This document shows positions 10,166 to 37,130 of a stretch of DNA of 38,290 nucleotides, in pieces (position 1 is the stretch's first letter; every line of letters starts with the position of its first letter). The notes under the pieces were generated by a model. That model saw nothing but the letters and a program-made list of their open reading frames with translations. It searched no databases and was not told the origin of the DNA. This DNA is from an uncultured Lachnospiraceae bacterium (GTDB lineage Bacteria > Bacillota > Clostridia > Lachnospirales > Lachnospiraceae), in contig CANOMQ010000039.1 in NCBI GenBank assembly GCA_947567595.1, forward strand, positions 1-38,290, in the 5' to 3' direction. Made by a program: the position numbers and the translations under genes.

Positions 10166-12580
10166 TCAGGAAAGCTCTAAAACGATTTCTGAATGCGCTT
10201 TCAATAGCTTCGCCGGGATATAATTGTCCGAAAGCTCCACGCCGTCCACGGTCAGCTTATGGAAGCCGCTCTCCGAATGCTTGGGATTGCGCACTGTGAT
10301 ATGTAAATGGCTGCCCCTGAAATCCTTGTCAATCTCAAAGCACTCCCACGCCTTTGGAATGGAGGGCGCAATCCGCAGCCCGTAAAAGTCGGGACGCATT
10401 CCCAAAATGCCCTCGACACAACCGACCATGACCGTTGAGGCTGTGCCTGTCAGCCAGTGTACATGCGAACGCCCGAAATGCGGGCTTGCCTTCCCTTCCG
10501 TAAACTGCCCGTAACAATACGGCTCCAGCTTACGGATTTCCGCCTTGCCGTTTTGCGCCGCCGGAGCATTTTCCATAAAGTATTCGAATGCACGTTCTCC
10601 ATGCCCGCGCAGTGCCTCCGCCAAAATAATCCAGCCCTGTGACTGGGAGAAAATCCCCGCGTTTTCCTTTGTTCCGGCATTGTAAATCACTGCAAGCGCC
10701 CCGTCAAACGCATGGCTGTGGTACGGCGGATTCATCAAAATCGCTCCAAATTCCGTATTCAACTGCCGATAAACCTGCTCCAGTGCCAAATCCGCCTGTT
10801 CCTTTGTCGCCAGTCCGCTGATGACCGACCAGCTCTGCGGATTGAGCCATAGGTTTGCCTCCAAGTCCGTGCGCTTTCCGATAACCTCGCCCTGCTGCGT
10901 AAAGCCGCGGATAAAACGGTCCTCGTCCCAGCAAAGCTCCTGTATCAGGCTTCCAAGCTTTTCCTGACTTGTATCCAAATATTGGATATATTCGTCGTCC
11001 TCCTTATACTGCGCAAACAGTCTTAAAATCGTCATTGCATAGTAGAACTGGAATGCCACAAAGCTCGACTCTCCGTCCGCCCCAAGACGCAGGCAGTCAT
11101 TCCAGTCCGCATACAGTCCTGCCGGCATTTTGTGCGGTCCCAAATGGTTCATGGAAAACGAAACCGCACGTTTTAAGTGCTCATACACCGTCGCTTCCCC
11201 CTTATTTGCAAACGGAATGACTTCGTCAATAAAGGAAAGGTCTCCCGACTCACAGACATATTTATAAACCGTCGGGAACAGCCAAAGCGCATCGTCCGCA
11301 CGGTATGCGGGGTGTCCCGTTTCCTTCACATAAGACGCATCGTCCGGCGTATCTTCATGTCCGGCGTTATGCGTAAACTTCACAAGCGGAAGCCCGCCGC
11401 CGTTGTCCACCTGCGCAGAAAGCATGAAGCGGATTTTTTCCACCGCCATTTCCGGCGCAAGGTGAATGACGCCCTGAATATCCTGCACCGTGTCCCGGTA
11501 ACCGTAGCCGTTGCGCAGACCGCAGTACGTAAATGACGCGGCACGCGACCATATAAAGGTCATAAAACAGTTGTAGGCATTCCATGTGTTTATCATGGTG
11601 TCAAACTCGGGACTTGGCGTTTTGACTTGGAAATGCGAAAGCTTTCCGTGCCAGTAGGCAATCAGCTCCTGCTGCTCGTTTTCACAGACTTCTTTGGTAT
11701 TCTCATACCGTGCCAAAATCTCCTGCGCCTGCGCGCTGTCTTTCATTCCCAGTACAAACGCAAGGCATTTTGTTTCGTTTGGCGCAAGCGTTATTTCTGT
11801 TGTCAGCGCGCCGCAGCCGTTTTCGTTGTAGTTCAGCGCGCCGCCCAAGTCCCCGTTTATCACGCCGATTGGATTGCCATAGCCGTGATACCTTCCGAGA
11901 AACGCCTCCCTGTCGCCGCAGTATGAGGAAACATCAGCCCCCGCAAGCCCGAAAAAGCGCTCCACGACAATCTTGTCGTCCACGTCCTTACCTTCCTCAA
12001 GACTGTCCAAATTGCCATGTATCCTCTGACAAATCCGGTTGCCCTGAAAGACCGTGCGCGTGATAAACTGCGAATACTGCAAATTCACCTGATCCTGCTC
12101 ATAATTGCTGTTGTTTGTAAATTCCGCGTATCCTGTAATGTTTAACGCTCTCGTGCGCTCCGAATGGTTTGTCACTTGAACGCACCAAACCTCATACTCC
12201 TTGTCAAGCGGCACATAGTAAAGCACCTCCGAGTGAATGCCGCTGTAATCCGCAAGCATTTTGGTGTACGCCGTTCCGTGGCGGCACTCGCTCCTGTAAT
12301 CGTTTAAGTCCTTTCCCACAGGCTGCCACGACGCGGACCAGTAATCCTTTGTTTCCTTGTCCTGCAAATAAATATAACGTCCCGGGCGGTCAAAATCGTT
12401 AAAAACATAACGAAGTATCCTGCCGTTTGCACCGGACTTTGCAAAGCTGTATCCGCCTGCGTTATTGGAAATCACCGCGCCATACGCGGGAGAGCCTAAA
12501 TAATTTGCCCACGGAGCGGGCGTGTCCGGTCTTACAATGACATATTCGCGTTTTTCATCATCAAAATATCCGTAATTCAT
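10166..12580 (-). CDS. Cellobiose phosphorylase (GH94)
   Basis: An 804-residue GH94 phosphorylase, matching the roughly 810 residues of known cellobiose phosphorylases. It converts cellobiose and phosphate to glucose 1-phosphate and glucose in the cytoplasm, saving one ATP per disaccharide. The N-terminal beta-sandwich domain (about 1-300) includes the start MNYGYFDDEKREYVI, typical of this subfamily. The (alpha/alpha)6 catalytic barrel follows, with CGLRNGYGYRDTVQDIQG and the general acid Asp492 in YADWNDCLRLG. The C-terminal domain ends near residue 804. GAAGGAG lies about ten bases before the ATG. It follows another GH94 gene by 35 bases and is probably cotranscribed with it. Confidence 0.93.
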   Translation of the reverse strand: MNYGYFDDEKREYVIVRPDTPAPWANYLGSPAYGAVISNNAGGYSFAKSGANGRILRYVFNDFDRPGRYIYLQDKETKDYWSASWQPVGKDLNDYRSECRHGTAYTKMLADYSGIHSEVLYYVPLDKEYEVWCVQVTNHSERTRALNITGYAEFTNNSNYEQDQVNLQYSQFITRTVFQGNRICQRIHGNLDSLEEGKDVDDKIVVERFFGLAGADVSSYCGDREAFLGRYHGYGNPIGVINGDLGGALNYNENGCGALTTEITLAPNETKCLAFVLGMKDSAQAQEILARYENTKEVCENEQQELIAYWHGKLSHFQVKTPSPEFDTMINTWNAYNCFMTFIWSRAASFTYCGLRNGYGYRDTVQDIQGVIHLAPEMAVEKIRFMLSAQVDNGGGLPLVKFTHNAGHEDTPDDASYVKETGHPAYRADDALWLFPTVYKYVCESGDLSFIDEVIPFANKGEATVYEHLKRAVSFSMNHLGPHKMPAGLYADWNDCLRLGADGESSFVAFQFYYAMTILRLFAQYKEDDEYIQYLDTSQEKLGSLIQELCWDEDRFIRGFTQQGEVIGKRTDLEANLWLNPQSWSVISGLATKEQADLALEQVYRQLNTEFGAILMNPPYHSHAFDGALAVIYNAGTKENAGIFSQSQGWIILAEALRGHGERAFEYFMENAPAAQNGKAEIRKLEPYCYGQFTEGKASPHFGRSHVHWLTGTASTVMVGCVEGILGMRPDFYGLRIAPSIPKAWECFEIDKDFRGSHLHITVRNPKHSESGFHKLTVDGVELSDNYIPAKLLKAHSEIVLELS

Positions 12581-12615
12581 TGTTCTGTCTTGCTCCTTCC
12601 TTATTTTAAAAAAAC

Positions 12616-15336
12616 TTAATCTTCCTGTTTCGCGCCCAGCTCTGCCTCGATTGTATGTACCATATCCGGCAAAGACACAATCGTTTCCCTGTCAAGGACT
12701 GCCGCGCTACCCAAAACCGTTCCACATTCCTGTCCGTCGCATAATACCTTTTTGACCGCGTATTCCCCGTAAGAAAGCTTTTGCGGATTTTTATAAACCA
12801 CTTCAAACTCCTTTTGCGCAAAACGGAAACAAATCTTCGCATTTCCCTGCGCGTCAAACTGCTCTTTTAACAGCTTCGGGCAAAGCTCCATATCGCCAAG
12901 CGCACCGCGCACGCCGAACACCTGTGTGACAACCGTAAGCATATACCAGCTTGCGGCACCCGTTAAATAATGGTACATTCCCCTGCCCGAGCCGTTAAAA
13001 TATTCCGGTATGCCCGGGTAAATCCGACTTGTTTCAAAGTTCATCGCCGCGTCCGCAAGCGTCTGCAGCGCCTTGTAGCCTTCCTTTACAAATCCGCGCC
13101 GGTACAGGGCGTTCGCGTACATTACGGTCATGTGTGAAAAGACCGCCCCGTTCTCCTTCTCCCCGTATGCAAAGCCGAACATTCTGCCCAAATCAAATTT
13201 CAGCTCCCCGAAATCCGTATTCAAACGATACCCGCCGATTTCCTTCTGATACAGATAACGGTCGGCGCTCCTGCAGATTTTTTCTACTTGCTCCTTCGTC
13301 GCGGTTTCGCTCATGATTGCAAACACCTGTCCGGTCAGAAGCATACGCACGCCGTTCTCAAAATAGCCCTCCACACGCGCCCTGTTGTTGTCATAATAGC
13401 TGTTAAACCAACCCTCGTCCTCATGCTGCGCCTGTGAAATCCACTCCGTTCTTCGGATATGCTCCGCCAGCCACTGCGCCTTATGGTATAAATTCTGTGC
13501 CAGTTCCTTCGTCGAAACGCTTATCCGCTCCCCGCTGATGTTGTGCTGACAACTTTGCAGATAACGTTGCAGCAGCTCCTGCTTTGCCCCAACGTCCTCG
13601 TAAAGCGCACCGTCGTCCGCCAAAAGCACCTCAAGCTCCGCCAAAACCGCTATCTCCTGCCAGTCGGGCTGCTCTGACAACTGCTCCAAAAGCTGCGCAA
13701 GCTGCAACAGATTGCCCGCGTACGCACAGGTAAATGCCACACTTTCGCCGTTTTCTGCTGCCATGTCCAACGCATCGTTCCAGTCCGCTCCGCGCAGACG
13801 GATATGGTTATGCGCCCCCACCTCATAAAAAGCACACAAATGTTCTAACAGCAAATGCTCTAAAATACTGCCCTCATACACCGCGCCGTTTTCGTCCTTC
13901 TGCCGCAGTCCGTACGAGGTGTCCCACGCACTGTCCAAACCACCGCCGCGCTGCATCTGCCCGTCCTTAAAATACGGCGCCTGTTCCTTCAAAACCGCGG
14001 TATCTCCCGTTTGGTCAATGTATAGCTTCGTCGTCATAAACGGCCATACGCCGTGGTCCATCCACACGCGCGCAATCCCGTTTCTGTCCGCCACAAAGAC
14101 GCCCTGTCCTTCCCCGATAATCGTAGCGTTGGTGCCGTCAATCCGCACGCCGCCGTAATTATCCAAAATCATCTGCCGCACGCCGCAAGGGTCCATAATC
14201 AGAAGCGACAGACAGTCCTGCCACAAATCGCGCCAGCCTCTTCCGCCTCTGCCATAGTCGTGGTGCGGCAGAAAAGAGCACCCGTAAATCCGCCGCAGCA
14301 TCGGCTGAAAGCTAATCCAGCGAAGCAGATTGTCATAGCGCATATCTCCCGTGTCATAGCGCACATTTACCTTCTGCTGCCAGTAATCGCGCGTCTTTGC
14401 AAATGCCGCCCGAACTTTCTCTTTGCTGTCATAACCGGACAGGGTATGCGCGATTTCGTCCTCCTGCGCAGTCACTCCCATGACAATGGTATACGACACA
14501 CTTGCGTTTGGCTCTAAAACAACCGTTTCAAACCGCAGCCCCCCAAGCGCCTCTTTTCCTGCAAAGCACTGTCCGCCGGGAACGCCGTCCCCATTTTGGA
14601 GAACTTTGCGCGGGTGGGTAAAACTTCCGCCCTCGCCGATATAGTCCTCTGCAACCGGATAAAAATCCTTCGGCTTTTCTCCTGTTCCACTCACGCCGCA
14701 CACAAAATACGTCAATTCATTTTTGCGGTGACCACGCTCGTCAAACGACAGCGTCGGCTTTACATACACCCCGTAATCCGTCGTTCTGATACGGTGCAGC
14801 AGCGAAGTTACGTGCCTGTGGTCGCGGATATTGTCTGCACTTCTTCCATAGATAGGAATTGCGGCAACCGGCGTGATTGTCTGCGCCGTTTTTGCCATGT
14901 TGCAAAGCTCCACATGCATAAGCTCCACATTGTCCCCCAGCGGCACAAACGACGTGACCTGTGCCCTTAGCTGATATTTTTCGGACTGCCTTGTAAGCGT
15001 ATGCCACATCAGCCCTGCTGTCAGTTCGCTTTTATCCTGATTTTTGGTAAATTTCCGGCTCTCCTCCTCAGCGGACGCGCCCACGACAGACCATGCGCCC
15101 ACGCCCTCCACATGACACCAAAAATTGCGTCCCGAGCGGTTATTGTGCAGATTTTCCGCGCTGACAGGCTCCATTAAAAACGCATTCTGATTGGTCTTGA
15201 TGTCGCCGCCCAAATTCGGGGTAAGCGCACTTTTTATCCCGTTTTCCCCCGCAACCGGAAAATACAGATAACTGTAATTTTCCGGTTGCAGCAGGAAAAA
15301 CGTTCCGTCCTTGTCCGTAAAATGCATTGTTTCCAT
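12616..15336 (-). CDS. GH94 phosphorylase, laminaribiose-phosphorylase-like
   Basis: A 906-residue GH94 family enzyme. Landmarks are an N-terminal region with SYLYFPVAGENGIKSALTPN and RNFWCHVEG, a barrel segment GRGGRGWRDLWQDCL, and the general acid Asp518 in RLRGADWNDALDMA. The length and the ADWNDALD motif differ from cellobiose phosphorylase (ADWNDCL) and from the roughly 980-residue cellodextrin phosphorylases, and fit laminaribiose (beta-1,3) phosphorylase better. Specificity within GH94 cannot be settled by eye, so treat beta-1,3 as a hypothesis. I start it at 15336, where AGGAGG lies nine bases upstream; the frame stays open to 15402 but has no ribosome binding site there. It sits 35 bases ahead of the cellobiose phosphorylase, as expected for joint use of mixed beta-1,3/1,4-glucan fragments. 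Confidence 0.85.
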   Translation of the reverse strand: METMHFTDKDGTFFLLQPENYSYLYFPVAGENGIKSALTPNLGGDIKTNQNAFLMEPVSAENLHNNRSGRNFWCHVEGVGAWSVVGASAEEESRKFTKNQDKSELTAGLMWHTLTRQSEKYQLRAQVTSFVPLGDNVELMHVELCNMAKTAQTITPVAAIPIYGRSADNIRDHRHVTSLLHRIRTTDYGVYVKPTLSFDERGHRKNELTYFVCGVSGTGEKPKDFYPVAEDYIGEGGSFTHPRKVLQNGDGVPGGQCFAGKEALGGLRFETVVLEPNASVSYTIVMGVTAQEDEIAHTLSGYDSKEKVRAAFAKTRDYWQQKVNVRYDTGDMRYDNLLRWISFQPMLRRIYGCSFLPHHDYGRGGRGWRDLWQDCLSLLIMDPCGVRQMILDNYGGVRIDGTNATIIGEGQGVFVADRNGIARVWMDHGVWPFMTTKLYIDQTGDTAVLKEQAPYFKDGQMQRGGGLDSAWDTSYGLRQKDENGAVYEGSILEHLLLEHLCAFYEVGAHNHIRLRGADWNDALDMAAENGESVAFTCAYAGNLLQLAQLLEQLSEQPDWQEIAVLAELEVLLADDGALYEDVGAKQELLQRYLQSCQHNISGERISVSTKELAQNLYHKAQWLAEHIRRTEWISQAQHEDEGWFNSYYDNNRARVEGYFENGVRMLLTGQVFAIMSETATKEQVEKICRSADRYLYQKEIGGYRLNTDFGELKFDLGRMFGFAYGEKENGAVFSHMTVMYANALYRRGFVKEGYKALQTLADAAMNFETSRIYPGIPEYFNGSGRGMYHYLTGAASWYMLTVVTQVFGVRGALGDMELCPKLLKEQFDAQGNAKICFRFAQKEFEVVYKNPQKLSYGEYAVKKVLCDGQECGTVLGSAAVLDRETIVSLPDMVHTIEAELGAKQED

Positions 15337-15373
15337 CAGTCCATACCTCCTGTAATTTTTTCTAAACATTTGT

Positions 15374-15408
15374 TTGCTATCGTAGCAATTTCGTACCTTC
15401 ATCGGTAC
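15374..15408. promoter_or_regulatory. Palindromes in leader of the phosphorylase operon
   Basis: TTGCTA-TCG-TAGCAA (15374-15388) is a perfect 15-base palindromic site, and GTACC/GGTAC (15393-15408) is a second inverted repeat beside it. They lie 38 to 72 bases before the GH94 start codon. Both resemble repressor operators or small leader hairpins. I could not place a convincing -35/-10 pair for this operon. Confidence 0.4.
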
Positions 15409-16715: not shown

Positions 16716-17660
16716 TTAGCTCCCTGCGGAAAGATACACAAGCTTCACCGCCGCCGTGTCCGCATAAATGAGAGGCGCCTTATGCTGGAAAAACACCGTA
16801 CCATCCGCAGGCGCACGAAGCTCCTCCAACACACCCCCTTCATACGGGTCGGTAATCACGGCAAGAAGCTGTCCCTTGGTCACTTCCTCCCCGACGAAAG
16901 CCCTGTTTTCATAAATACCTGCCTCCCTGCATCTTACGGACAATAGATTGTCATCGCACAAAACCTGTGACTGGTAATGATACCCGCCATTGACCGTGCT
17001 ATGCACAATCCCTTCCTCATTCAAAAGCCGCTCAATCGCCTTCACCGCGTCCGACGCGCTTTGGCGGTCAATTTCCTCCGTGTCCGTCGTATAGACACTG
17101 AATGCCCGTGTCTCCCAAATCTGCCAGTTGTAATTCAAGGTCGTCGTGTCAAACGGACGCGTGTTTCGCGTCACCACATAGGGAAACGCAAACTTTTTCG
17201 CCGTCTCAATATCCTCAAACCCCGTCTGCATCATGCGGATATGCGGAAGAAACCGTCCTGACATATAATTAGAGGCAAACTGGATACCAATGCCATATTC
17301 CTTAATCACCGCAAATACCCCCGCCGCAATGCGCTGCGTTGTCTCCCCCATATCATAGCCCGGAAACATGCGGTTAATGTCGGTATTATCGGTAGACCAG
17401 AACCGTTTCCCGATATTCATGGAATACGAATTGACACAGGGTATGACAAGAATGCTCTTTCCCGCCGCGATTTCCTGCCGCGCCTCAAGCTGCTTTAAGC
17501 GCTCTATCAGCCTGCTGCACGCAAACATCTGCTGTACCTCATTCCCACGCATACTTCCGACCACGCACACGGATTTTTCGCCCGCGCCAAATTCATATCC
17601 CACAACCTGCATCGGCTCCCGATACAATGCATTCAATTCATAAATAATGTTCTTTTTCAT
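16716..17660 (-). CDS. AstE/AspA-family protein with degraded zinc site (likely pseudoenzyme)
   Basis: A 314-residue protein related to succinylglutamate desuccinylase/aspartoacylase (M14-like zinc carboxypeptidase fold) and paralogous to its upstream neighbour. Family enzymes bind zinc with His and Glu in an HGxE motif and a later His, and use a Glu near the end of the catalytic domain. Here the first motif reads SMRGNE (Arg38 in place of His, Glu41 kept). The second His is Phe128 (IQFASN, against VDIHASN in the neighbour). The catalytic Glu aligns with Tyr190 (FSVYTT, against LVVEAG). The TDINRMFPG segment is intact, so the fold and probably substrate contacts persist. Residues about 240-310 form a barrel-sandwich-like C-terminal domain. 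A substrate-binding or regulatory partner of the active paralogue is the simplest reading. It starts 11 bases after that gene with AGGGAAG upstream. Confidence 0.85.
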   Translation of the reverse strand: MKKNIIYELNALYREPMQVVGYEFGAGEKSVCVVGSMRGNEVQQMFACSRLIERLKQLEARQEIAAGKSILVIPCVNSYSMNIGKRFWSTDNTDINRMFPGYDMGETTQRIAAGVFAVIKEYGIGIQFASNYMSGRFLPHIRMMQTGFEDIETAKKFAFPYVVTRNTRPFDTTTLNYNWQIWETRAFSVYTTDTEEIDRQSASDAVKAIERLLNEEGIVHSTVNGGYHYQSQVLCDDNLLSVRCREAGIYENRAFVGEEVTKGQLLAVITDPYEGGVLEELRAPADGTVFFQHKAPLIYADTAAVKLVYLSAGS

Positions 17661-17671
17661 AACACGCTTCC

Positions 17672-18628
17672 CTACCTTTTTAACAGCCTGCCCACAAGCG
17701 AGCCCTCATCAACCACGGGATATTCCCGAATGGTAAACAAAATGCCGCGCTCAGGCGTCGTGATTTCTGCCAGCACATCGCCCGTTAAAGGATTCACAAT
17801 CCTTCCGACCACATCTCCTCTTTCCAGCGTCGTCCAGTGCTTTGCCTCCGGCACAAAAATCCCCGCTTTTGGCGCATTGAAAAAGACCACGCCGTCCGCC
17901 CGCGCGTCCACAATCGGCTCCCGCGCGGGATACGCCGCACCCTGCCAAATACCAAGCGTGCGCATGGTATTCATCAGCCCGTCCGCAAGCTGCGCTCCAT
18001 ACGCCTTTGTAATCCGCATGCCAACGCCCGCCTCCACGACCAAGGTCGGCGTCCCCGTGCTGTTTAAGCTGTACGCAAGCGTCGATTCCAGCACGGTACT
18101 CGACGCATGTACCCACACAAAATCGACATTCATGTGACATGCAAGCGGCACAAGCACATCGCTATGCAGCTCGTTAATCCGGATTTGCGGAATTTCCGTC
18201 AGGTAAATATTGCTCGCATGAATGTCCACAATCAAATCCGCACCCGACAATTCCTCAATAATCTTGTGCGCCACGTACTCCGTCATCGCGCCGTCGCCGC
18301 TGCCCGGAAAAATCCGGTTCATATCAAGGTCAAACCCGGGAATGCCCCGCGTCATCGAATCAATGCCCATCGGGTTCATTGCAGGGTACACGTCCACAAT
18401 CCCCGTAAGGCACTCTGGCTGTTCCCTAATCCGCCGAAGAACCTCATAGCAGACATACTGCCCCTCCAGCTCGTCCCCGTGAATCCCCGTGACAATGCCA
18501 ATCCGTTTCCTTTTTCCCTGTGCTGTATCCACAGGCAAAATCCTGTTTCGCTTAATCGCCAGCGTCTCCCCGATTGGCAGCTTTACCTCACAGACCGAAC
18601 CCAGTTCCGATTTTATTTCCCGTGCCAT
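17672..18628 (-). CDS. AstE/AspA-family zinc hydrolase (active site intact)
   Basis: A 318-residue succinylglutamate desuccinylase/aspartoacylase-family protein, predicted to cleave an amide bond next to a carboxylate-bearing amino acid in the cytoplasm. The zinc ligands His50 and Glu53 (GIHGDE) and His137 (IVDIHASN) are present, as is the catalytic Glu199 (LVVEAGVG). DLDMNRIFPG is the substrate-binding Asn-Arg segment. A C-terminal sandwich-like domain (about 245-318) follows. Two adjacent ATGs exist; the second (18628) has better spacing from GGAGG. The gene starts 24 bases after the transglutaminase-like gene. True AstE functions in arginine catabolism, but no other ast genes are here. The ATP-grasp/alpha-E/transglutaminase context argues for a different amide or peptide substrate. 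Confidence 0.85.
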   Translation of the reverse strand: MAREIKSELGSVCEVKLPIGETLAIKRNRILPVDTAQGKRKRIGIVTGIHGDELEGQYVCYEVLRRIREQPECLTGIVDVYPAMNPMGIDSMTRGIPGFDLDMNRIFPGSGDGAMTEYVAHKIIEELSGADLIVDIHASNIYLTEIPQIRINELHSDVLVPLACHMNVDFVWVHASSTVLESTLAYSLNSTGTPTLVVEAGVGMRITKAYGAQLADGLMNTMRTLGIWQGAAYPAREPIVDARADGVVFFNAPKAGIFVPEAKHWTTLERGDVVGRIVNPLTGDVLAEITTPERGILFTIREYPVVDEGSLVGRLLKR

Positions 18629-18652
18629 CATGAGCCTCCACCATTTCCTTTC

Positions 18653-19444
18653 TCACACATCATGAACGACAACGCGCACATTCTGCGTCTGCGTCGTCGT
18701 CCCGCAAAACGTCCCGCGGTTGACAATACAATCCTGATAGTCGCGCCCATGCGAAATCTTGATATAGGTGTCGTCAGCCATTTTATCATTCGTCGGATCC
18801 ATCGCGTACCACTTCCCGTCCGCGCAGACCTCCACCCATGCGTGCGAATACCCCTCGCCCATCATCATACCGACAACATAGCGGCTTGGAATATCCGCCA
18901 TCCTGCACAGCGCAAGCATAATATGAGCGTAATCCTGGCACACACCCTGTCCGCCCGAAAGCGCTTCCTCCGCTGTCGTGTGTATGTCCGTTACGCCCTG
19001 AACATACGCCATATCCTGATAAATCTGATGCGTCAGCCGTTCGCAAAACACATACGCGCCCTCGCCCGCCGCCCGCTGATTCCGCTCATAGTATCCCTTT
19101 ATCGTATCCCCCGCCTTTGTGTACTGTGAGGCAAAACGGTACGGCGCAAGCAAAAGCGGGGTGTCCTGACAAGGAAGCGCTGCATTGCCCCAAACGGTCG
19201 CCACACCGCACACCTCCACCCAGAACGCCGTGTGCGGATGTTCAACCGCGCCGTACACATATGCGTTTCCAAAGCTGTCAACGTCTTCCTGCAAGGTACA
19301 CGCAGGTTCCACACAAATCTCCCGCTCTTTAATCTGCTGCCGTGTATCCGACTGCGGCAGCATGCGCAGTGCAAACTGGTGTTTTTGTATCGGCTGCGAA
19401 AACACCAGCGACATCTGATAGCCAAACCGCAGCGTCCTACCCAT
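18653..19444 (-). CDS. Transglutaminase-like cysteine protein
   Basis: A 263-residue protein with an N-terminal beta domain typical of bacterial transglutaminase-like proteins (about 1-115), then a papain-like core. The triad is visible: Cys169 in GGQGVCQDYAH, His201 in GYSHAWVEV and Asp216 in AMDPTND. Bacterial members usually act as peptidases or amide-transferring enzymes rather than as cross-linkers. There is no signal peptide, so it is cytoplasmic. I start it at the ATG at 19444, which has GGAGG eight bases upstream; the longer GTG start at 19459 has GGAG too close. This family is repeatedly found beside alpha-E and circularly permuted ATP-grasp proteins, exactly as here. Confidence 0.88.
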   Translation of the reverse strand: MGRTLRFGYQMSLVFSQPIQKHQFALRMLPQSDTRQQIKEREICVEPACTLQEDVDSFGNAYVYGAVEHPHTAFWVEVCGVATVWGNAALPCQDTPLLLAPYRFASQYTKAGDTIKGYYERNQRAAGEGAYVFCERLTHQIYQDMAYVQGVTDIHTTAEEALSGGQGVCQDYAHIMLALCRMADIPSRYVVGMMMGEGYSHAWVEVCADGKWYAMDPTNDKMADDTYIKISHGRDYQDCIVNRGTFCGTTTQTQNVRVVVHDV

Positions 19445-19508
19445 CTGCATATCCTCCACGCTCCATTTCCAACTGTTTTTATCCGAAATTTCACATATGC
19501 TTTTATTT

Positions 19509-20189
19509 TTATATCAGAACAAGACCTTCCACATCCTTGACAATGCTGCCGTAATCAACCGCTTCTGCCATGTCCATATGCTCAATCGCGTCCGCAAGGC
19601 GTTCCATGCACTCCACGCTGTACGGCATACCGCTTCTTATCAGCCGCGTGCGCATACGGTGCAGCTCGCTTTTTAACTCCTTTGCACCGATTTTCAGCCG
19701 CGCGTACAAATCAATGCGCTCCACCCGCTTCCCCGTCTTGATAATATTCCTTGTGGTCTCGCTCTCAATAAAATCGTCCGCAATGCCCCAGAACGCAAGA
19801 ATGTTGTCCTCCACATTCTGCAGCTCCAAAAGCGGCGCCCGCGAAATCTTTGCCTTGTTAATCGCATAAATGGCTAACTGTATGTACGAAAGCGTCTCGC
19901 TCCCAAGCTCCTCGCGCAGCACGACCGCATTGTCGTAGGCACGCATTAGATTGCTCAGAATGGAATTGGGATCCGTTTCGTCAAAGCCGTATCGCTGGTT
20001 GAAATCCTCCTTGTTCTGGTAGATGTTGGGAATTTCGAGCATTCTGCAAAAATCCCCGTAATTTTCCCCGATATCATCAATCATGTCATCATAGCATTTT
20101 GCGTAAAGACGGATTGTCGTGTAAACCCGCTCGGAATAACGCCCGAGCCAGTATAGCCTGTTTGTCTGTTCTAACGAGATAATACCCAT
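19509..20189 (-). CDS. Alpha-E domain protein
   Basis: A 226-residue, mostly helical protein of the alpha-E family (COG2307). The N-terminus ISLEQTNRLYWLGRYSERV matches the family pattern in which a Leu-Tyr-Trp-Leu-Gly-Arg-Tyr-x-Glu-Arg core opens the first helix. It is shorter than the roughly 310 residues common in other phyla, so a C-terminal part is missing relative to them. The biochemical role is unknown; the family almost always accompanies circularly permuted ATP-grasp proteins and is thought to work with them in making a peptide-like product. Its start codon lies inside the ATP-grasp gene (overlap of 19 bases), and its GGAGG is formed by that gene's codons, so production of the two is coupled. 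Confidence 0.87.
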   Translation of the reverse strand: MGIISLEQTNRLYWLGRYSERVYTTIRLYAKCYDDMIDDIGENYGDFCRMLEIPNIYQNKEDFNQRYGFDETDPNSILSNLMRAYDNAVVLREELGSETLSYIQLAIYAINKAKISRAPLLELQNVEDNILAFWGIADDFIESETTRNIIKTGKRVERIDLYARLKIGAKELKSELHRMRTRLIRSGMPYSVECMERLADAIEHMDMAEAVDYGSIVKDVEGLVLI

Positions 20190-21490
20190 GTGTCCTTAAA
20201 ACCTCCTCCCTGTGATGAGTTTACAATAAACGAATCCGGATTACGCGAAAAACGCGTCAGCCCGCTCTTCCATACATACGGTTCGTCCGCCATCAGGACA
20301 AACGCGCGCAAATCCGCCTTCCGCTCCACAACCGTACCGTTATCCTGTATCTCCAAATCCTGAAAATCAATGACCTCCTGCGCGATGAAACGGCGCGGTT
20401 CCCGCTTTAGCAGTGCAATAAAGTCTGCCTTCTGCGCCTTCGTCATACTGCTGCCAAACACAACGCCATATCCGCCCGCTTCCGCCACATCCTTAAGCAC
20501 CAGCTTGTCAAAATGCGCAAGCACATACGCCATATCCGTCTCGTAAAACGGCAGATACGTCGGCGCGTTTGACAAAACAGGCTCCTCGCCGAGGTAATAG
20601 CGCACCATTTTCGGCACGAAATAATAAATGCCCTTATCGTCCGCAATGCCGTTTCCGATTGCATTGAGCAGTGCAAGGTTTCCCTTCCGGTACACATCAA
20701 AAATATGCGGTATCCCAATCACGGAATCGGGATTAAAATGCATCGGGTCAAGGTACTCGTCGGAAATCCTGCGGTAGACCGCGCCAACCCGTTCCTTTTT
20801 GCCCTTGTAATCCACATAGTAAAGCCTGTCATCCTCCACCAAAAGCTCACTGCCGTTCACCAAATGCGCGCCCGTTTTTTCCGCCAGATAGGAATGCTCA
20901 AAGTAAGCGGCATTGTACCTGCCCGGTGTTAAAATGACCGTGTGCCCCTCAACGTTTACATAATCCATCGCCCTTCGCAAAAGCTGTGCGTAATTTCTGT
21001 TGTCCTCAAGCAGGTTGTCCCGAAACGTTTTCGGGCTGCTTCTCCTGCACAAATCCCTTGCAATCATCGGATAGGACGCGCCGGAGGGCACCCGCAGGTT
21101 ATCCTCAAGGATATACCACTGCCCGTCCTTGCCCTTCACAAGGTCAATCCCCGAGATATGCGAATATATCCTTTTGGCAGGGGTCACCCCTTCGCACGCG
21201 GGCATATAGCCGCTTGACGCAAAGATGAAATCCTCCGGTATCACCTTATCTTTAACAATCTTTTTCCCATGATAAATGTCGTCCAAAAACAGGTTAAGCG
21301 CCAAAACCCGCTGCTTTAACCCCCGCTCCAGATAGTCAAACTCTTTCTTCTGAATGACGCGTGGTATTGCGTCAAAGGGAAACAGTTGTTCTTTGAAGGT
21401 GTTGTTTTTATAAATCCCGAATTTCACGCCATATCGCGCCAATAATCTGTTCACAGTTTCCGTGTTGTCAAGCAAATCCATGTCATACAT
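20171..21490 (-). CDS. Circularly permuted type 2 ATP-grasp protein
   Basis: A 439-residue protein of the COG2308 family of circularly permuted ATP-grasp enzymes. Visible landmarks are YILEDNLRVPSGASYPM (the family hallmark), VILTPGRYNAAYFEHSYLA, GNGIADDKGIYYFVP and VLKDVAEAGGYGVVFG, the last resembling the ATP-binding glycine loop. Members are predicted amidoligases that join a carboxylate to an amine with ATP, but no product is known for this type. It is first in a five-gene operon with alpha-E, transglutaminase-like and two AstE-like genes. I start it at ATG 21490; GTG 21499, with GAGG eight bases upstream, is an equally plausible start, and the frame stays open to 21532. A TATAAT box lies about 95 bases upstream. 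Confidence 0.87.
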   Translation of the reverse strand: MYDMDLLDNTETVNRLLARYGVKFGIYKNNTFKEQLFPFDAIPRVIQKKEFDYLERGLKQRVLALNLFLDDIYHGKKIVKDKVIPEDFIFASSGYMPACEGVTPAKRIYSHISGIDLVKGKDGQWYILEDNLRVPSGASYPMIARDLCRRSSPKTFRDNLLEDNRNYAQLLRRAMDYVNVEGHTVILTPGRYNAAYFEHSYLAEKTGAHLVNGSELLVEDDRLYYVDYKGKKERVGAVYRRISDEYLDPMHFNPDSVIGIPHIFDVYRKGNLALLNAIGNGIADDKGIYYFVPKMVRYYLGEEPVLSNAPTYLPFYETDMAYVLAHFDKLVLKDVAEAGGYGVVFGSSMTKAQKADFIALLKREPRRFIAQEVIDFQDLEIQDNGTVVERKADLRAFVLMADEPYVWKSGLTRFSRNPDSFIVNSSQGGGFKDTWVLSR

Positions 21491-27019: not shown

Positions 27020-28225
27020 TTAAATCGCGTCAAACGTCGCCCGGACTGCCTTGATAAAGTCCTCGCTGTTAAGCACCGTCACGTCCTTCAATGACGTAAT
27101 CAGCGCCAAATCCTTCGTCATCTTTCCGCCCTCTATCGTCTGAACCGTCGCCTTTTCCAGCTTATCCGCAAACGCCACAAGCTCCGAAATCCCGTCAAGC
27201 TCACCGCGCTTTCTGAGCGCCCCCGTCCATGCAAAGATTGTTGCAACGGAATTGGTCGAAGTCTCCTCACCCTTTAAATGCTTGTAATAATGACGCTGTA
27301 CCGTGCCATGCGCCGCCTCGTACTCATACACGCCCGTCGGCGATACCAACACGGAGGTCATCATCGCAAGCGAACCGAACGCCGAGCTTACCATATCGCT
27401 CATGACATCGCCGTCATAATTTTTACAAGCCCAGATAAATCCGCCCTTTGCCTTCATCACGCGCGCCACCGCATCGTCAATCAGGGTATAGAAATACTCA
27501 ATCCCTGCCGCCTCAAACTGCTTCGCATACTCGGCGTCGTAAATCTCCTGAAAAATATCCTTAAACGTATGGTCATATTTCTTGGAAATCGTATCCTTTG
27601 TCGCAAACCACAAATCCTGCTTCGTGTCCAAGGCATACTGAAAGCACGCGTGCGCAAAGCTTGCAATTGATTCATTGGTATTGTGAATGCCCTGCAGGAT
27701 TCCGGCGCCGTTAAAATTGTGAATGAGCTCTCTCGTCTCCGTTCCGTCCTGCGCCGTAAACACAAGCTCCGCCTTTCCTGCGCCCGGAACCTTAATTTCC
27801 GTATTTTTATACACATCGCCATAGGCGTGTCTTGCAAGCGTAATCGGCTTCTCCCAGTTTTTTACGCAAGGCTCAATGCCCTTTACGACAATCGGGGTTC
27901 TGAAAACCGTTCCGTCAAGAATTGCCCTGATTGTGCCGTTCGGACTTTTCCACATTTCTTTCAGATTATACTCCGTCATACGTGCCGCATTGGGTGTGAT
28001 TGTCGCACACTTGACCGCCACGCCATACTTCTTTGTCGCCTCCGCCGAGTCCACGGTCACTTGGTCGTTTGTTTCGTTCCGGTACTCAAGTCCCAAATCA
28101 TAATACTCCGTCTTTAAGTCAATGTAGGGTGAAAGCAGCTCGTCCTTAATCATTTTCCAAAGGATACGCGTCATTTCGTCCCCGTCCATCTCTACAAGCG
28201 GTGTCGTCATCTGAATTTTTGCCAT
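27020..28225 (-). CDS. icd: Isocitrate dehydrogenase (NADP+)
   Basis: A 401-residue decarboxylating isocitrate dehydrogenase of the eukaryote-like type II group, whose usual length is about 400-410. It makes 2-oxoglutarate, CO2 and NADPH in the cytoplasm. Visible signatures are the N-terminal [20 protein letters not shown], the substrate loop [20 protein letters not shown], the metal-binding region around [21 protein letters not shown] (the Asp residues contribute) and the cofactor stretch [17 protein letters not shown], whose Arg-His favour NADP. AGGAGG lies nine bases before the ATG. It is third in an operon behind Re-citrate synthase and a GntR regulator, consistent with making 2-oxoglutarate for glutamate rather than running a full TCA cycle. 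Aconitase is not in this window. Confidence 0.95.
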
Positions 28226-28252
28226 TAATCTCTCCTCCTGTTTTCATATATC

Positions 28253-28933
28253 TTAATGTTTTGCGCTCAAACCACATTTTACCATATTTTTGTACGCATT
28301 ACAAATATGCTCGTCCGCAAGCCGTTCCGCAAGCTGCGCATTGCCGTCGCGGATTGCCTCCATGATGCTTTTGTGCTCCGCCACCGCCGCCTTGCTGCGC
28401 TCCTTGTCGGAAAGCGTCTTTTGCCGCTCCTTTTGCACGTACTGATGAAAATCCTTTAGCAGATGTATCAGCATCTTGCTCTCGCACGCCTCGTAAAGCT
28501 GCATGTGGAACCGGTTGTCAAGCTCCGTCAACTGTTCAAAATGCCCCTTTGACAGATGGAACTCGCTCAAAAGAATGGTTTCCTCCATCTCCTCGATTGC
28601 GTCCTTTGATATTTTTTTCGTCGCCCATTTCGCGCACAAGCCTTCAAGGAGCGAACGGATTTCGTAAATGTCCGCCACATCACAAGCGGATATTCCTGTC
28701 ACATATGCCCCCTTGTTTGGCACGATGCGGATTAGCCCTTCTAACTCCAACTGCCGGAATGCCTCGCGCACCGGCGTCCTGCTCACACCAAGCTCCTCTG
28801 CGACCGCCGCCTCCTTTAGCTCGTCTTTTTCATTATATCTTCCGCTCAATATATCTTCCCGAAGCTTATTAAATACCCTGCTGCCTAACGAATATTTATC
28901 TGATGTGTCATGATTGACATCATATTCGCCCAT
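28253..28933 (-). CDS. GntR family regulator (FadR/FCD type)
   Basis: A 226-residue transcription factor. The N-terminal winged helix (about residues 15-80, with LREDILSGRY and ELGVSRTPVREAFRQLELEGLI) is the standard GntR HTH. The C-terminal FCD domain (about 90-220) is all-helical with likely metal-binding or ligand-contacting Asp and His residues (ELDNRFHMQLYE, AEHKSIMEAI). FCD regulators usually sense a carboxylic acid; citrate or 2-oxoglutarate would fit here but is inference. I start it at the ATG at 28933; its AAGGAG lies inside the end of the citrate synthase gene. Lying between citrate synthase and icd, it most likely controls this operon. Nested palindromes over the operon promoter are its probable target. 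Confidence 0.88.
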   Translation of the reverse strand: MGEYDVNHDTSDKYSLGSRVFNKLREDILSGRYNEKDELKEAAVAEELGVSRTPVREAFRQLELEGLIRIVPNKGAYVTGISACDVADIYEIRSLLEGLCAKWATKKISKDAIEEMEETILLSEFHLSKGHFEQLTELDNRFHMQLYEACESKMLIHLLKDFHQYVQKERQKTLSDKERSKAAVAEHKSIMEAIRDGNAQLAERLADEHICNAYKNMVKCGLSAKH

Positions 28934-28937
28934 TGTC

Positions 28938-30377
28938 CTACTGCTGCTCCTTTCCAACCGTTCCTTTTTGGAGTGTGATGCCAAGCGTCTTGCAGCCCTC
29001 GTCAATCACCGCCAAAAGCTCGTCGTCCGTAATCACCGTGACACGACCGCCCTCGTACTCCGCGTCAACCCATGTCTTGACATAGGCAACAAGCTCGGAG
29101 GTCTTTTCAATCTTCTCCTCACCCGAAAGCCTGAAATACGTGTTAATCCAATGCGCAATGCCCGCAAGCCCGGAGGTGTTGGAAACCGCGCACAGCACCG
29201 GTCTTTTCAGGAATTTTTCCGTGTCGAAAATGTTGTAGATTTCCTCGTTTTTCAGCAATCCGTCCGCATGGATTCCTGCCCTTGTGATATTGAAGTTCTT
29301 TCCGACAAACGGCGTTCTTGGCGGAATCTGATAACCGATTTCCTTCTCATAATATTCGGCAAGCTCCGTGATTACAGTCGTATCCATGCCGTTTAATGTC
29401 CCGCGAAGCTGCGCATACTCAAACACCATCGCCTCAAGCGGCGTGTTGCCCGTACGCTCCCCGATGCCAAACAGCGATGTATTGACACCCGCACAGCCGT
29501 AAAGCCATGCTGTCGTTGAGTTTGTGACCGCCTTATAAAAATCGTTGTGCCCATGCCATTCAATCCACTCATGCGGCACGCCTGCGTGTGTGTGAATTGC
29601 ATAGATGATGCCCTGCACGCTCCTTGGAATTACCGCGCCGGGATAATTCACGCCATAGCCCATCGTGTCGCAGGCGCGCACGATAATCGGTAACTGATAC
29701 TGCTCCGCAAGCTTCATCAATTCCTGACAAAACGGTACGACATAGCCGTAGATGTCCGCCCTCGTAATGTCCTCCAAATGGCACCTGACGCTGATGCCCT
29801 CGTCAAGGCACTCCTTCACGACAGAAAGATAATGCTCCATCGCCTGTCTTCTTGTCATCTTTAATTTCATGAAAATATGGTAATCGGAGCAGCTTACAAG
29901 AATACCCGTCTGCTTCATTCCGATTTCCTTTACCAGCTTAAAGTCCTCCTTGCTTGCCCGAATCCACGAAGTGACCTCCGGGAACTGGTAGCCGCGCTCC
30001 ATGCATTGATACACGGCGTCCCTGTCCTTTTTGCTGTACAGGAAGAACTCGCTCTGGCGAATCATGCCGTTTGGCCCGCCAAGCTTGTGGAGGTAATCGT
30101 AGATTGTCACGATTTGCTCCGTGCTGTACGGCGCCCTTGACTGCTGCCCGTCGCGGAAGGTCGTGTCCGTTATCCAGATTTCCCTTGGCATATTGTGCGG
30201 AACCACCCTGTCGTTAAACGGTATTTTGGGTATCTCGTCATAGGGGAACATGTTGCGGAACGCGTTTGGCTTCTCCACGTCCTGCAGCTGGTACATGTGC
30301 TCCTCAATCTGTAACAGGTTATTGTGCTCGTTCATGGTAACCGGGCGGTTTTCGAAATATCCGGTATTCTTTTCCAT
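28938..30377 (-). CDS. Re-type citrate synthase (HMG-CoA-lyase-like family)
   Basis: A 479-residue member of the isopropylmalate/homocitrate synthase family. TDTTFRDGQQSRAPYS holds the metal- and substrate-binding Asp-Arg pair, HLEDITRAD the following acidic and basic residues, and WHGHNDF the two metal-binding His residues. A C-terminal extension follows (about 375-479). Relatives of this length in clostridia, first established in Clostridium kluyveri, make citrate from acetyl-CoA and oxaloacetate with Re stereochemistry and replace the unrelated usual citrate synthase. Plain homocitrate or citramalate synthase is the alternative, but the operon with isocitrate dehydrogenase favours citrate synthase. 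AAGGAG precedes the ATG. A strong promoter and nested palindromes lie about 70-100 bases upstream. Confidence 0.85.
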   Translation of the reverse strand: MEKNTGYFENRPVTMNEHNNLLQIEEHMYQLQDVEKPNAFRNMFPYDEIPKIPFNDRVVPHNMPREIWITDTTFRDGQQSRAPYSTEQIVTIYDYLHKLGGPNGMIRQSEFFLYSKKDRDAVYQCMERGYQFPEVTSWIRASKEDFKLVKEIGMKQTGILVSCSDYHIFMKLKMTRRQAMEHYLSVVKECLDEGISVRCHLEDITRADIYGYVVPFCQELMKLAEQYQLPIIVRACDTMGYGVNYPGAVIPRSVQGIIYAIHTHAGVPHEWIEWHGHNDFYKAVTNSTTAWLYGCAGVNTSLFGIGERTGNTPLEAMVFEYAQLRGTLNGMDTTVITELAEYYEKEIGYQIPPRTPFVGKNFNITRAGIHADGLLKNEEIYNIFDTEKFLKRPVLCAVSNTSGLAGIAHWINTYFRLSGEEKIEKTSELVAYVKTWVDAEYEGGRVTVITDDELLAVIDEGCKTLGITLQKGTVGKEQQ

Positions 30378-33878: not shown

Positions 33879-34596
33879 TTATTTTGTCTTAAAGCCTTTC
33901 ACAATTGGATTCTGATTTGTAAGATTTGCACCCGCTGCCTCTATCTTTACATAATAACTCGTTTTCTCCAAAAAAACTGAACCGATTATCTTATCTTCAT
34001 CTGTACATTTTTTATCAGTATAGTAAGATATCTTATAATCTGTCTGTGGCAATTTATTTTTTCCCATTGTTACCGTAACGACAGGAACTGTACCATTCAC
34101 CTTAACTGATACCTTAACCTTCTTGATATCATTTGGCTTAATCTCATAGGTTCCTGATACAACCGCTTCTCCTGCATAATTTCCCTTACCTATAATTTTC
34201 ATTGTGTAAATACCGGTCTCTTTAGGCTCATCAGTCGTTATGTTTCCTTTCGTATATTCAATGTAATAATCCTTGCCTGCCTTTAACCCTACTTTTTTGG
34301 TTCCATTAAGATGCTTTACTGTACTCTTAGCCTGATTTACACCGCCATTATATATATTTGAATCTGCGATCTTCGTTGAACCGGAATCCACATTTAAAGT
34401 CAATGGATTGATTTTAAATGTACGCCTAATCTCACCACCATATATCCCCGTACCTGTAATAATAACAGACGCATTTCCTGCATCTTTATTATTCAGATAA
34501 CTTACCTTAAACTTCACCTTCTTAGCTTTTCCTTCATCCGAAAGCTCAACCTTGGGCTTATATGCCTTTCCCGTATATGGCAAACTCTTATTGTTC
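33879..34596 (-). repeat. C-terminal Ig-like module, copy 1 (paralogous to 37527-38260)
   Basis: This coding segment and 37527-38260 encode homologous modules of about 240 residues in the same orientation, each placed at the very end of a secreted protein. Similar DNA stretches, for example near both stop codons, could allow recombination between the two genes. Confidence 0.7.
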
Positions 34597-37130
34597 ACAA
34601 GCTCATCTACCTGTTCAAGCTTAAACCACTTCTCGTCAAGCTTTTGACCTACTGAGTAGTTCAATGTAGCCTTCTTTTTGCCATAGGTAATGACAATCTT
34701 TGTTTTTCCTTCCTTTACGGGTACCAGCTTCAAGTCAATCGTATCTCCCGTAAGCTTATATGTAACTGTTGCTATACTTGGGTCTGAAGGTTTTATATCA
34801 ACAGCAGGTAGAATTTCAACATCATTCAAAGTTTCGTCGTTTCCGTCATTCTCATTTATTTCAAGATCCTCTGCTGTATATACGGCATTTTTTTGATTTA
34901 CTGTCAGTAAAATATGTTGTTCTTCCCCGTTTCCACCAACAATACTTCCTGAAGCGGTAAGATTCGGTTTTCCACCATCGTCAAAAGTGACTGAATCAAT
35001 CTGACTGACTGTTACAATGCATGTATCCGATATACCTGCCACTACATATGTTATAGCCGCCACGCCCGGAGCTACTGCCGTAATCACACCCTTTTGATCG
35101 ACCTTTACCACTTTTTCATCACTGCTTAACCATGCTTTTGCAACATTTTTATCTTCTGTATATGCATTGTTACAAACAAGCTCTTCTTTCTGTTTCGGTA
35201 CAAGATTTACTATTCTCTTTGAAAAAATGATCTCGCCATCCTTTGGCGGTTGATAGTACGAAGAAGAACGACCCACAAATTCAAAATTCTTTAAGCCGGT
35301 ATATCTGGTTCCTTGCGGCTTATGTCCCAAAGACTCATTCGCATCGTCACCACACAAAAGATAACTTTGCGTAGATGCGGAATTTACCTTATCTGATGTA
35401 AAATCCACTTCATTCCAAGTAGAGTCCTGCAAATACCATTTTCCGTCCGGCATTTCCACATAATTCCACGCATGCCCGCCACCATTGCCGATGCCTGTCG
35501 CATACATATTAGGAATACCGATTGCATCAAGAAGTCTTGTCATCGCAAGAGCATAGCTTTCACACACACCATAACCTTGCAGCAACGCGCCATACGATGA
35601 ATGACAATAAAAATAAGGCGCCTCTTTCTCCTGAGATAACTTTATCACTAAATTTCCTTTATCATCTATAGCGTAATCATTTTCTGTCAATACGCCCTTC
35701 TCTATCTCATAATAATTATGCTCACAAATCCACTTATCAAAATATTCCACAACTCCATACACCGGAAAAGCCGGATAATTTTCAATTGCATATTCCTGTG
35801 CCTCCGCTGCAATCTCCAAAACTTTGGCATTTGCTGCTTTTTGGATTTCGGGAGTATAATATTTTGATTTTTCATAGGTTATCGTAGTCTTCTGATATTT
35901 TTTGCTTCCTCCACCCACAAGGAATATGTCAACCACACTAACCGGCTGCGTTAAATCAATCCAATCACATTTGTATGGCTCGGTTATCATATATGCGGAA
36001 ACTGCCTGAAGAATATCACTCATTTCAGGCATGGAAGAAGGGGCAATTGTAAATGAGTTTTTGCCTTTCCCCAGTACCTTGCTTGCATTATATATTGACT
36101 TCTGCCCATTCGTAAGCTGTTTACTGAACCAATCGCTTGCAGGAAGAATCGAATTATACTGCTGCATGTCCCCTGCCATGTCATAGCCTAAATCAATTAT
36201 AACATCTGCTTTCGCATTTTCAACAATTTCAAATTCCTCTACCTCTGGTTTGTAAATCAGCTCCATATTTTCCGCTGATAATGCCGGCTCCTCTATCGCA
36301 GTTTCTCTTTCCTCTATTGAAATTTCTTCTGTTGTGTTTTCTTCTGATAACTGCTCTTCTTCAGATGTATCTTCTGTAACTGCCTCATTTGATGCAGCAT
36401 CCTCTACCATAGTTTCCTCTATTGCCGTTGACTGCTCCTCTTCTTCTACAGATGCAACCTCTTCCGAAGATTCTGCCTTTAAATTTTCCTGTACAGTTTC
36501 TTCTATATCTGTTATCTCGCTTTCCGCTTCAATCTCAAAAACATCCGAAACATTTTCAGTCTCATGTTCCTCAATATGCTCTTGAGTTAAAAGTTCTTCT
36601 GCCTTCTCACCATCATATTCTGTTTCATTCTCTGATGCTGCTGTATCTTCAAAGGCGTTCTCTACAAGCTCTTCTTTAAACGTCTGAAGTAATTTCATGG
36701 AAGCCTGACGTTGAACAAGAAGGTTTCCCTCCCCATCTACTGCAATAACTGCATTTTCCAAGAAATCCCCTGCGCTCTTCTCCTCGGCAATCTGATCACA
36801 TATCTCAATATAAGCACTCTGACCTTCCGCATCAAACGACTTTATTGTGTCTATTGAAAGATATGTTACATCATCATAGACAATGCCATCAGAACCTACA
36901 GCCTTTCCATCCTTGGAAACATAAAATGTACATAAATCGCCTGTTTCTGAACGAAGCTCAGTCTCATATGCTTCCTCGCTCCCAATTATGTCTCGCGTTT
37001 CTTCTGTTTCAGCAATCGCTTCATCCCCTGAAATCTCTGCCGCATTTACCCCCTGTACCGTTATACCCGCAGGCATTTCGGAAACCAAAAGAGTCAATAC
37101 AAGCAGCATTGAAACAATTCTCTTCTTCAT
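33879..37130 (-). CDS. Secreted transglutaminase-like protein with Ig-like repeats
   Basis: A 1083-residue exported protein. The signal peptide is MKKRIVSMLLVLTLLV..., with likely cleavage after GVNA (residue 30). Residues about 155-300 are extremely acidic (Glu/Thr/Ser-rich) and probably extended. A transglutaminase-like core at about 440-590 has Cys523 (GYGVCESYA), His553 (GGGHAWNYV) and Asp569 (LQDSTWNEV). A Big_2-type Ig domain follows at about 633-710 (VVKVDQKGVITAVAPGVAAI), then another Ig-like stretch. The C-terminal module (about 845-1083) has three repeats of the YDG-like kind common in Lachnospiraceae surface proteins (YTGKAYKPKV, then NNKDAGNASVIITGTG). No LPXTG anchor is seen. It may cleave or modify surface or host proteins; the substrate is unknown. 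The C-terminal module is shared with the next gene upstream. Confidence 0.85.
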   Translation of the reverse strand: MKKRIVSMLLVLTLLVSEMPAGITVQGVNAAEISGDEAIAETEETRDIIGSEEAYETELRSETGDLCTFYVSKDGKAVGSDGIVYDDVTYLSIDTIKSFDAEGQSAYIEICDQIAEEKSAGDFLENAVIAVDGEGNLLVQRQASMKLLQTFKEELVENAFEDTAASENETEYDGEKAEELLTQEHIEEHETENVSDVFEIEAESEITDIEETVQENLKAESSEEVASVEEEEQSTAIEETMVEDAASNEAVTEDTSEEEQLSEENTTEEISIEERETAIEEPALSAENMELIYKPEVEEFEIVENAKADVIIDLGYDMAGDMQQYNSILPASDWFSKQLTNGQKSIYNASKVLGKGKNSFTIAPSSMPEMSDILQAVSAYMITEPYKCDWIDLTQPVSVVDIFLVGGGSKKYQKTTITYEKSKYYTPEIQKAANAKVLEIAAEAQEYAIENYPAFPVYGVVEYFDKWICEHNYYEIEKGVLTENDYAIDDKGNLVIKLSQEKEAPYFYCHSSYGALLQGYGVCESYALAMTRLLDAIGIPNMYATGIGNGGGHAWNYVEMPDGKWYLQDSTWNEVDFTSDKVNSASTQSYLLCGDDANESLGHKPQGTRYTGLKNFEFVGRSSSYYQPPKDGEIIFSKRIVNLVPKQKEELVCNNAYTEDKNVAKAWLSSDEKVVKVDQKGVITAVAPGVAAITYVVAGISDTCIVTVSQIDSVTFDDGGKPNLTASGSIVGGNGEEQHILLTVNQKNAVYTAEDLEINENDGNDETLNDVEILPAVDIKPSDPSIATVTYKLTGDTIDLKLVPVKEGKTKIVITYGKKKATLNYSVGQKLDEKWFKLEQVDELVNNKSLPYTGKAYKPKVELSDEGKAKKVKFKVSYLNNKDAGNASVIITGTGIYGGEIRRTFKINPLTLNVDSGSTKIADSNIYNGGVNQAKSTVKHLNGTKKVGLKAGKDYYIEYTKGNITTDEPKETGIYTMKIIGKGNYAGEAVVSGTYEIKPNDIKKVKVSVKVNGTVPVVTVTMGKNKLPQTDYKISYYTDKKCTDEDKIIGSVFLEKTSYYVKIEAAGANLTNQNPIVKGFKTK

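Follow-up and report, generated by a model that had tools for sequence, protein, structure and literature searches.

The closest described system is the Anbu operon, in which four genes, encoding an ATP-grasp protein, an alphaE protein, a transglutaminase-like protein and the Ntn-hydrolase Anbu, stand in conserved order (PMC6376114; also PMC5666114). In the published accounts consulted here, the ATP-grasp/alpha-E/transglutaminase module has no established product. Here we describe a five-gene operon on a 38,290-nucleotide stretch of DNA from an uncultured Lachnospiraceae bacterium (contig CANOMQ010000039.1, assembly GCA_947567595.1; hereafter the window). The first three families of the Anbu operon recur in it, in the same order and position, and again a hydrolase gene follows the transglutaminase-like gene. 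In place of Anbu, however, an unrelated hydrolase occupies this slot: a pair of adjacent AstE/AspA-type genes, AstE1 and AstE2, of which AstE2 is without catalytic residues. The module is already known; the AstE pair in the Anbu position is new, and no paper linking an AstE-like gene to the module was found among the matches listed in the open-licence literature. With an active/inactive deacylase pair in this position, the product of the module can be tested directly, and so perhaps can the role of Anbu.

All five genes lie on the minus strand. The first encodes a circularly permuted ATP-grasp type 2 protein, a predicted amide ligase (20171..21490, alternative start 21532; CP_ATPgrasp_2, PF14403, 447 bits). 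It is followed by a short-form alpha-E protein of 226 amino acids (aa) (19509..20189; PF04168, 74 bits, cut-off 20.8) and a transglutaminase-like, papain-fold protein (18653..19444, alternative GTG start 19459; Transglut_core, PF01841, 72 bits, and Bact_transglu_N, PF08379, 45 bits). The last two genes encode AstE1, a deacylase of the AstE/AspA type whose zinc and catalytic residues are intact (17672..18628, or with start 18631), and its paralogue AstE2, a predicted non-catalytic partner (16716..17660), which score 77 and 39.8 bits, respectively, against AstE_AspA_cat (PF24827; cut-off 25 bits). With the chosen start codons, the intergenic gaps from the ATP-grasp gene to AstE2 are -19, 64, 24 and 11 bases. 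An earlier note on this DNA had claimed five minus-strand genes with these gaps and had named the same families; the gaps are confirmed for the chosen starts, and each main Pfam match lies above its curated cut-off. Two features had been overlooked, namely that the alpha-E protein covers about half of its profile and that AstE2 has no catalytic residues. Promoter and terminator matches in the window were no more numerous than in shuffled sequence, so transcript ends are not established by them. The genome that holds the window comprises 4.16 Mb in 99 contigs and is 98% complete; among named records, the window is closest to metagenome assemblies of Lachnospiraceae.

To survey conservation, a genome collection was scanned with AstE1, and the best 80 of 141 relatives were taken as loci, a selection biased to linked copies. 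All five genes occur in one order and on one strand in 74 of the 80; in the other six, the first gene begins at most 254 bases from a contig end, and the genes that are left keep the same order. Gene order is therefore broken in none of the best 80 loci and kept in all 74 that are not cut by a contig end, and the ATP-grasp/alpha-E overlap is exactly 19 bases in 69 of the 74 full loci. A fairer test than these AstE1-selected loci is a class sample of 293 evenly chosen genomes (completeness filter 90%), which was searched with AstE1, AstE2 and the ATP-grasp; alpha-E and the transglutaminase were not searched in all 293. AstE1 matched strongly (E up to 1e-25) in 11 of these genomes and AstE2 (at least 280 bits) in the same 11, and eight genomes with AstE2-query matches of at most 26 bits were set aside as weak. 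CP_ATPgrasp_2 scored above 400 bits in eight genomes, all of which carry the AstE pair, and the five genes are contiguous in seven of them (the window, L157–L160, L167 and L168). The eighth, G296, has its AstE pair and the first module genes (ATP-grasp and alpha-E) on separate contigs. Together, these results confirm that the five-gene operon is real and conserved, its order recurring beyond chance. The dedicated gene system with an AstE pair that the earlier note had proposed is thus borne out: far from being rarely linked to the other three genes, the pair accompanies every full ATP-grasp of the class sample.

Carriage is patchy in the window's own genus, with strong AstE2 matches in 15 of 38 genomes (the window's genome and the remnant in G020 included, some incomplete). 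In that remnant (L156), the ATP-grasp gene is in two pieces adjoining AstE2, and the genes between were not found; the G020 genome gave no alpha-E match, and the stretch read gave no transglutaminase or AstE1 match. A complete five-gene operon also occurs in a record titled Treponema sp. (L094), and its AstE genes group with Lachnospiraceae, which makes it a case of either transfer or mis-binning. Nothing in plasmids matched AstE2, and viral contigs, searched without the phage collection, yielded no confirmed relative; the operon shows no sign of being phage or plasmid cargo. A sixth conserved operon gene was sought by clustering 1,899 flanking open reading frames (ORFs) and by Pfam/NCBIfam scans of 139 neighbour genes, and was rejected; the 139 genes came from 50 loci thinned at 85% AstE1 identity, with 24 of 163 listed genes omitted for length or size.

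The two AstE-type proteins differ sharply at the active site. In AstE1, H51 and E54 of the HxxE zinc motif are present in 98 of 99 aligned rows, the single miss being a gap, and H138 and E200 in 99 of 99 (rows below 75% of full length were excluded). By family homology, we take H51, E54 and H138 to be zinc ligands and E200 the catalytic Glu. The homology of AstE2 to AstE1 is full-length (303 columns at a probability of 99.7). AstE2 has R38 at the first zinc His site in 97 of 97 rows, with the Glu of HxxE kept in all 97. His occurs at residues 128–130 in none of the 97, and the catalytic Glu site (190) is Tyr in 89 and Phe in 8. AstE2 thus keeps one of the three zinc ligands, having lost both zinc His and the catalytic Glu in every row. 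Where the second zinc His would fall is alignment-dependent, its counterpart being a gap in one profile alignment and A129 in others. Residue 127 was rejected as this site, as profile alignments pair Q127 with Asp136 of AstE1; His is found at 127 in 6 of 97 rows and does not clearly restore the ligand. The Asn-Arg pair N96-R97, which presumably contacts the substrate as elsewhere in the AstE/AspA family, is kept in 97 of 97. The earlier note's double amide hydrolase therefore does not stand: judged by residues, only AstE1 of the two would be a complete metal deacylase, and AstE2 is a predicted pseudoenzyme.

AstE2 is not decaying and is under purifying selection. Its ratio of nonsynonymous to synonymous substitution (dN/dS) against near relatives is 0.05–0.10 (computable in five of seven comparisons), inside the AstE1 range of 0.04–0.13 (four of seven); these are rough values, since the AstE2 dS was saturated in two of the seven comparisons and above 1 in the other five. 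In one locus (L158:4669-6204), AstE2 lies within a 511-aa open frame, against the usual 310, either as an extension or as a frame artefact.

More distant relatives suggest how the pair arose. A phylum sample of 299 genomes yielded an AstE2 relative at 56% identity in G687, which has the five-gene operon, and relatives at 30–32% identity in two genomes of another family (f140). Of the nine genomes of the f140 order, six carry an AstE pair of this kind, and the two f140 loci that were fully read (L177 and L178) hold the same five families in the same order as the window; their alpha-E proteins are longer (324 aa in L177, 307 aa in L178; profile coverage there was not computed). All six f140 second copies keep HxxE and the second His and have Met in place of the catalytic Glu. 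AstE1 and AstE2 each fall into a single supported group. In a tree with long branches and no outgroup, a branch (100/99) joins the f140 first copies to AstE1 and leaves the second copies on the AstE2 side. Pairwise scores of the second copies are even (112 bits to AstE1 and 109 to AstE2 for L178; 116 and 127 for L177), so their assignment to a paralogue rests on position and tree. From these residues and groupings, it is likely that one duplication preceded the split, that the AstE2 side then lost the Glu, and that the zinc site disappeared later, in the window's clade only. Catalysis would then seem to have been lost in steps from one of two co-encoded paralogues, the series running from a complete AstE1 through an f140 second copy with zinc site and no Glu to the second copy of the window's clade with neither. 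Heliobacteria are the known phototrophic Bacillota; because the photosystem family PF00223 matched in eight of the nine genomes of the f140 order, these genomes are presumably heliobacteria.

The ATP-grasp, which we take to be COG2308-like, has long near-invariant residue runs in an alignment of 86 rows. A solved relative is 3n6x (E 2e-107, 363 bits), a glutathionylspermidine synthase-like ATP-grasp named 'putative', to which it is closely related in sequence; the Gsp-type amidase domain is absent from the window protein, the Pfam scan of which gives ATP-grasp families only. The alpha-E match covers only profile positions 7–164 of 294. PF04168 matched in 24 of 31 genomes searched, each match starting at position 3–7 and ending at 161–200; no convincing solved relative of alpha-E was found (best E 0.72). 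In the transglutaminase-like protein, whose solved relative is 3isr (E 5e-16), the Cys-His-Asp triad is intact (C174 and H206 in 88 of 88 rows, D221 in 87 of 88). A second Transglut_core match (29 bits) lies in a 1083-aa minus-strand protein at window 33879-37130, apart from the operon.

Besides its hydrolase, the five-gene operon differs from the Anbu operon in its short alpha-E and in the proteasome family, PF00227, for which the 98% complete window genome gave no match. Among 30 pair-bearing genomes, PF00227 matched at E up to 0.001 in five, once above cut-off (G098, a 184-aa frame on another contig). Ten further genomes, seven of them with the operon or the pair, had one above-cut-off match each, none adjoining the operon; these frames measure 186–206 aa, except one of 324 aa, and by their size we take them for HslV.

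These findings allow us to propose that the five genes form a nitrogen-linked cycle of amide ligation and hydrolysis in which an active/inactive AstE pair replaces Anbu, a reading to which we give about even chances. As judged from their families, the ATP-grasp and alpha-E would together couple a carboxyl group with an amine at the expense of ATP, and the transglutaminase-like protein, with its intact triad, may cut or transfer an amide on the ligase product. AstE1 would act on an N-acyl, carboxylate-bearing compound, hydrolysing its amide to free an amine or amino acid; its residues are observed, and this reaction is what they would support. AstE2, an AstE-derived pseudoenzyme, would bind AstE1 as a heteromer and may help to recognise or gate the substrate, as suggested by its fixed adjacency to AstE1, exact co-occurrence with it and strong conservation without catalytic residues. 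The Anbu operon shares this logic of a ligase module followed by an amide hydrolase, and the AstE pair in the Anbu position therefore most likely marks the same ligase-plus-hydrolase cycle with an unrelated hydrolase. The biology served would most probably be the use or buffering of amine or amino-acid nitrogen. The earlier note's more specific idea, an operon that makes, transfers and trims an aspartyl- or glutamyl-type conjugate, names a substrate class that the sequence does not specify.

A bolder version takes the AstE1–AstE2 heteromer for a non-homologous replacement of Anbu in the strict sense, Anbu and AstE1 hydrolysing the same small amide conjugate made by the trio of module proteins. 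We consider this rather doubtful; if true, Anbu would be a metabolic amidase and not a protease. The Anbu of Yersinia bercovieri is reported to have no peptidase or amidase activity in vitro, and the ATP-grasp of the Yersinia Anbu operon to release phosphate from ATP (PMC6376114). AstE1 is a tractable hydrolase, the substrate of which could be found via small amides and may be the product of the whole module.

A link to nitrogen metabolism is likely, given some of the neighbouring genes and the nitrogen control of proteobacterial relatives. An NtrC-dependent cluster of Burkholderia cenocepacia includes DUF403, DUF404/407 and transglutaminase genes (PMC5491218), Anbu is described as high under nitrogen starvation (PMC6376114), and the trio domains are reported to associate with urea-metabolism domains in marine metagenomes (PMC3597751). 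Beside the five genes, L055 has an N-carbamoylputrescine amidase above cut-off and an aldehyde dehydrogenase; in L166, urease-like genes, named by eye, follow the operon, and a urease probe matched in 0 of 80 loci. The neighbours of the pair in G241 and the C26 peptidase gene of L166, described below, also count towards the nitrogen link. A GabT-like probe gave five matches, four of which are more than 1 kb away on the other strand and resemble arginine-synthesis neighbours by eye; the fifth (L055) scores above the argD subfamily cut-off and far under the putrescine ones.

Some neighbours favour a purely catabolic salvage, in which an imported amide or peptide is primed by the ATP-grasp and cut by the transglutaminase-like and AstE proteins, and nothing is built or stored. 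The Puu pathway, in which glutamate is attached to putrescine before breakdown, follows such a scheme. Probes placed polar amino-acid ABC transporter-like genes just upstream, on the same strand, in L043, L046, L052, L059 and L065; reading by eye adds L165 and L166, and the binding protein of L165 matches an Asp/Glu-binding model without reaching its cut-off. Next to its operon, L166 also has a C26 peptidase gene of the gamma-glutamyl-GABA (gamma-aminobutyrate) hydrolase family, which at 110 bits falls short of the cut-off of 266, and a probe points to another in L088. In G241 (L153), where the pair occurs without the trio, the pair is flanked by a GABA transaminase that passes its cut-off, a gene that by eye is a PucR-type regulator, and polar amino-acid ABC transporter-like genes that stay under the equivalog cut-offs. 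Against salvage, such neighbours are missing from most loci: probes for substrate-binding protein (SBP)-like, permease-like and C26-like genes matched in only 6, 7 and 1 (L088) of the 80, respectively. We hold salvage alone to be rather unlikely. GABA, putrescine or polyamines as the substrate class is a weak lead only, since the handful of loci behind it were picked out by eye. In L043, L052, L059, L165 and L166, the transporter-like genes and the operon are separated by a cytidylate-kinase-like gene.

Several observations weigh against the proposed ligation/hydrolysis cycle itself. The case for an AstE1–AstE2 heteromer is wholly genetic, and pull-downs of co-expressed Yersinia Anbu-operon proteins are reported to have given no specific interactions (PMC6376114). 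Expression of Anbu-operon proteins is described as unchanged under various conditions (PMC5666114), which cuts against a strong nitrogen response. The AstE pair can also exist without the trio: three of the 11 pair-bearing class genomes (G241, G303 and G321) have no ATP-grasp match above 400 bits, and in these and in G045, G051 and G054 there is no alpha-E match anywhere in the genome and no trio gene was seen beside the pair in the loci read. Trio and pair consequently need not share a substrate. Conversely, PF14403 matched below 60 bits in 20 other class genomes, set aside as weak, none of which has the AstE pair except G241, whose match is below cut-off; five of the 20 carry a partial ATP-grasp above cut-off (37–60 bits) without the pair. 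Finally, the commonest Pfam family among the 139 neighbour genes reaches only five, so the flanking genes are mostly unrelated and the nitrogen context comes from few loci picked by eye. In the window itself, the operon is flanked by sugar phosphorylase-like genes and a sensor kinase/regulator pair, which are uninformative on nitrogen.

Characterised AstE/AspA enzymes deacylate small N-acyl amino acids. DoeB/EutE, for example, act on such compounds (PMC8739950), which speaks against a role in protein tagging, whereby the trio would label proteins or peptides with a small amine or amino acid that the AstE pair would take off again. Tagging has likewise been proposed for the Anbu operon (PMC6376114), and the intact transglutaminase-like triad would suit it; no carrier-protein gene recurs beside the operon, genes below 80 aa not having been examined, and on balance we hold tagging to be improbable.

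Instead of being a dead partner, AstE2 could have enzyme activity of its own, at a new active site that is metal-free or lies elsewhere in the protein. Its own set of fully conserved residues (R38, E41, F87, W88, N96, R97, S130, T174, L175 and Q180; 68 rows) and its low dN/dS are what such an enzyme would show. Against this stand the single remaining zinc ligand, the missing catalytic Glu and an f140 counterpart already without Glu, which together make an active AstE2 quite unlikely and favour the non-catalytic partner of the proposed cycle.

AstE1 shares family, zinc and catalytic residues with DoeB/EutE (N-acetyl-L-2,4-diaminobutyrate deacetylase; 6twl, 6twm) and other AstE/AspA enzymes, and DoeB is its closest NCBIfam model. 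The scores, however, are far under the cut-offs (57 bits for AstE1 and 39 bits for AstE2 against 402.7 for the DoeB equivalog TIGR02994; 18 bits for AstE2, with AstE1 not listed, against 305.65 for the arginine-catabolism AstE model TIGR03242), and both equivalog identities were rejected for the pair. AstE1 further differs from DoeB in being paired with AstE2 in 11 of 11 class-sample genomes. That AstE1 is a succinylglutamate desuccinylase or DoeB serving true arginine or ectoine catabolism is scarcely credible on these scores and with no ectoine-hydrolase, other ectoine or Ast gene noticed in the window. The earlier note's remark that no arginine catabolism genes lie nearby agrees with a Pfam scan of 27 window ORFs, among which no arginine-catabolism family appeared (smaller ORFs were not scanned).

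Elsewhere in the window, two GH94-family phosphorylase-like genes lie in a row at 10166-15402, the 928-aa one with a weak, broken catalytic-profile match. A further group at 27020-30377 comprises an isocitrate/isopropylmalate dehydrogenase family gene, a GntR regulator and an HMGL-like gene; an isocitrate dehydrogenase-like gene is also found near the operon in L157 and L168, and as a locus-end piece in L088.

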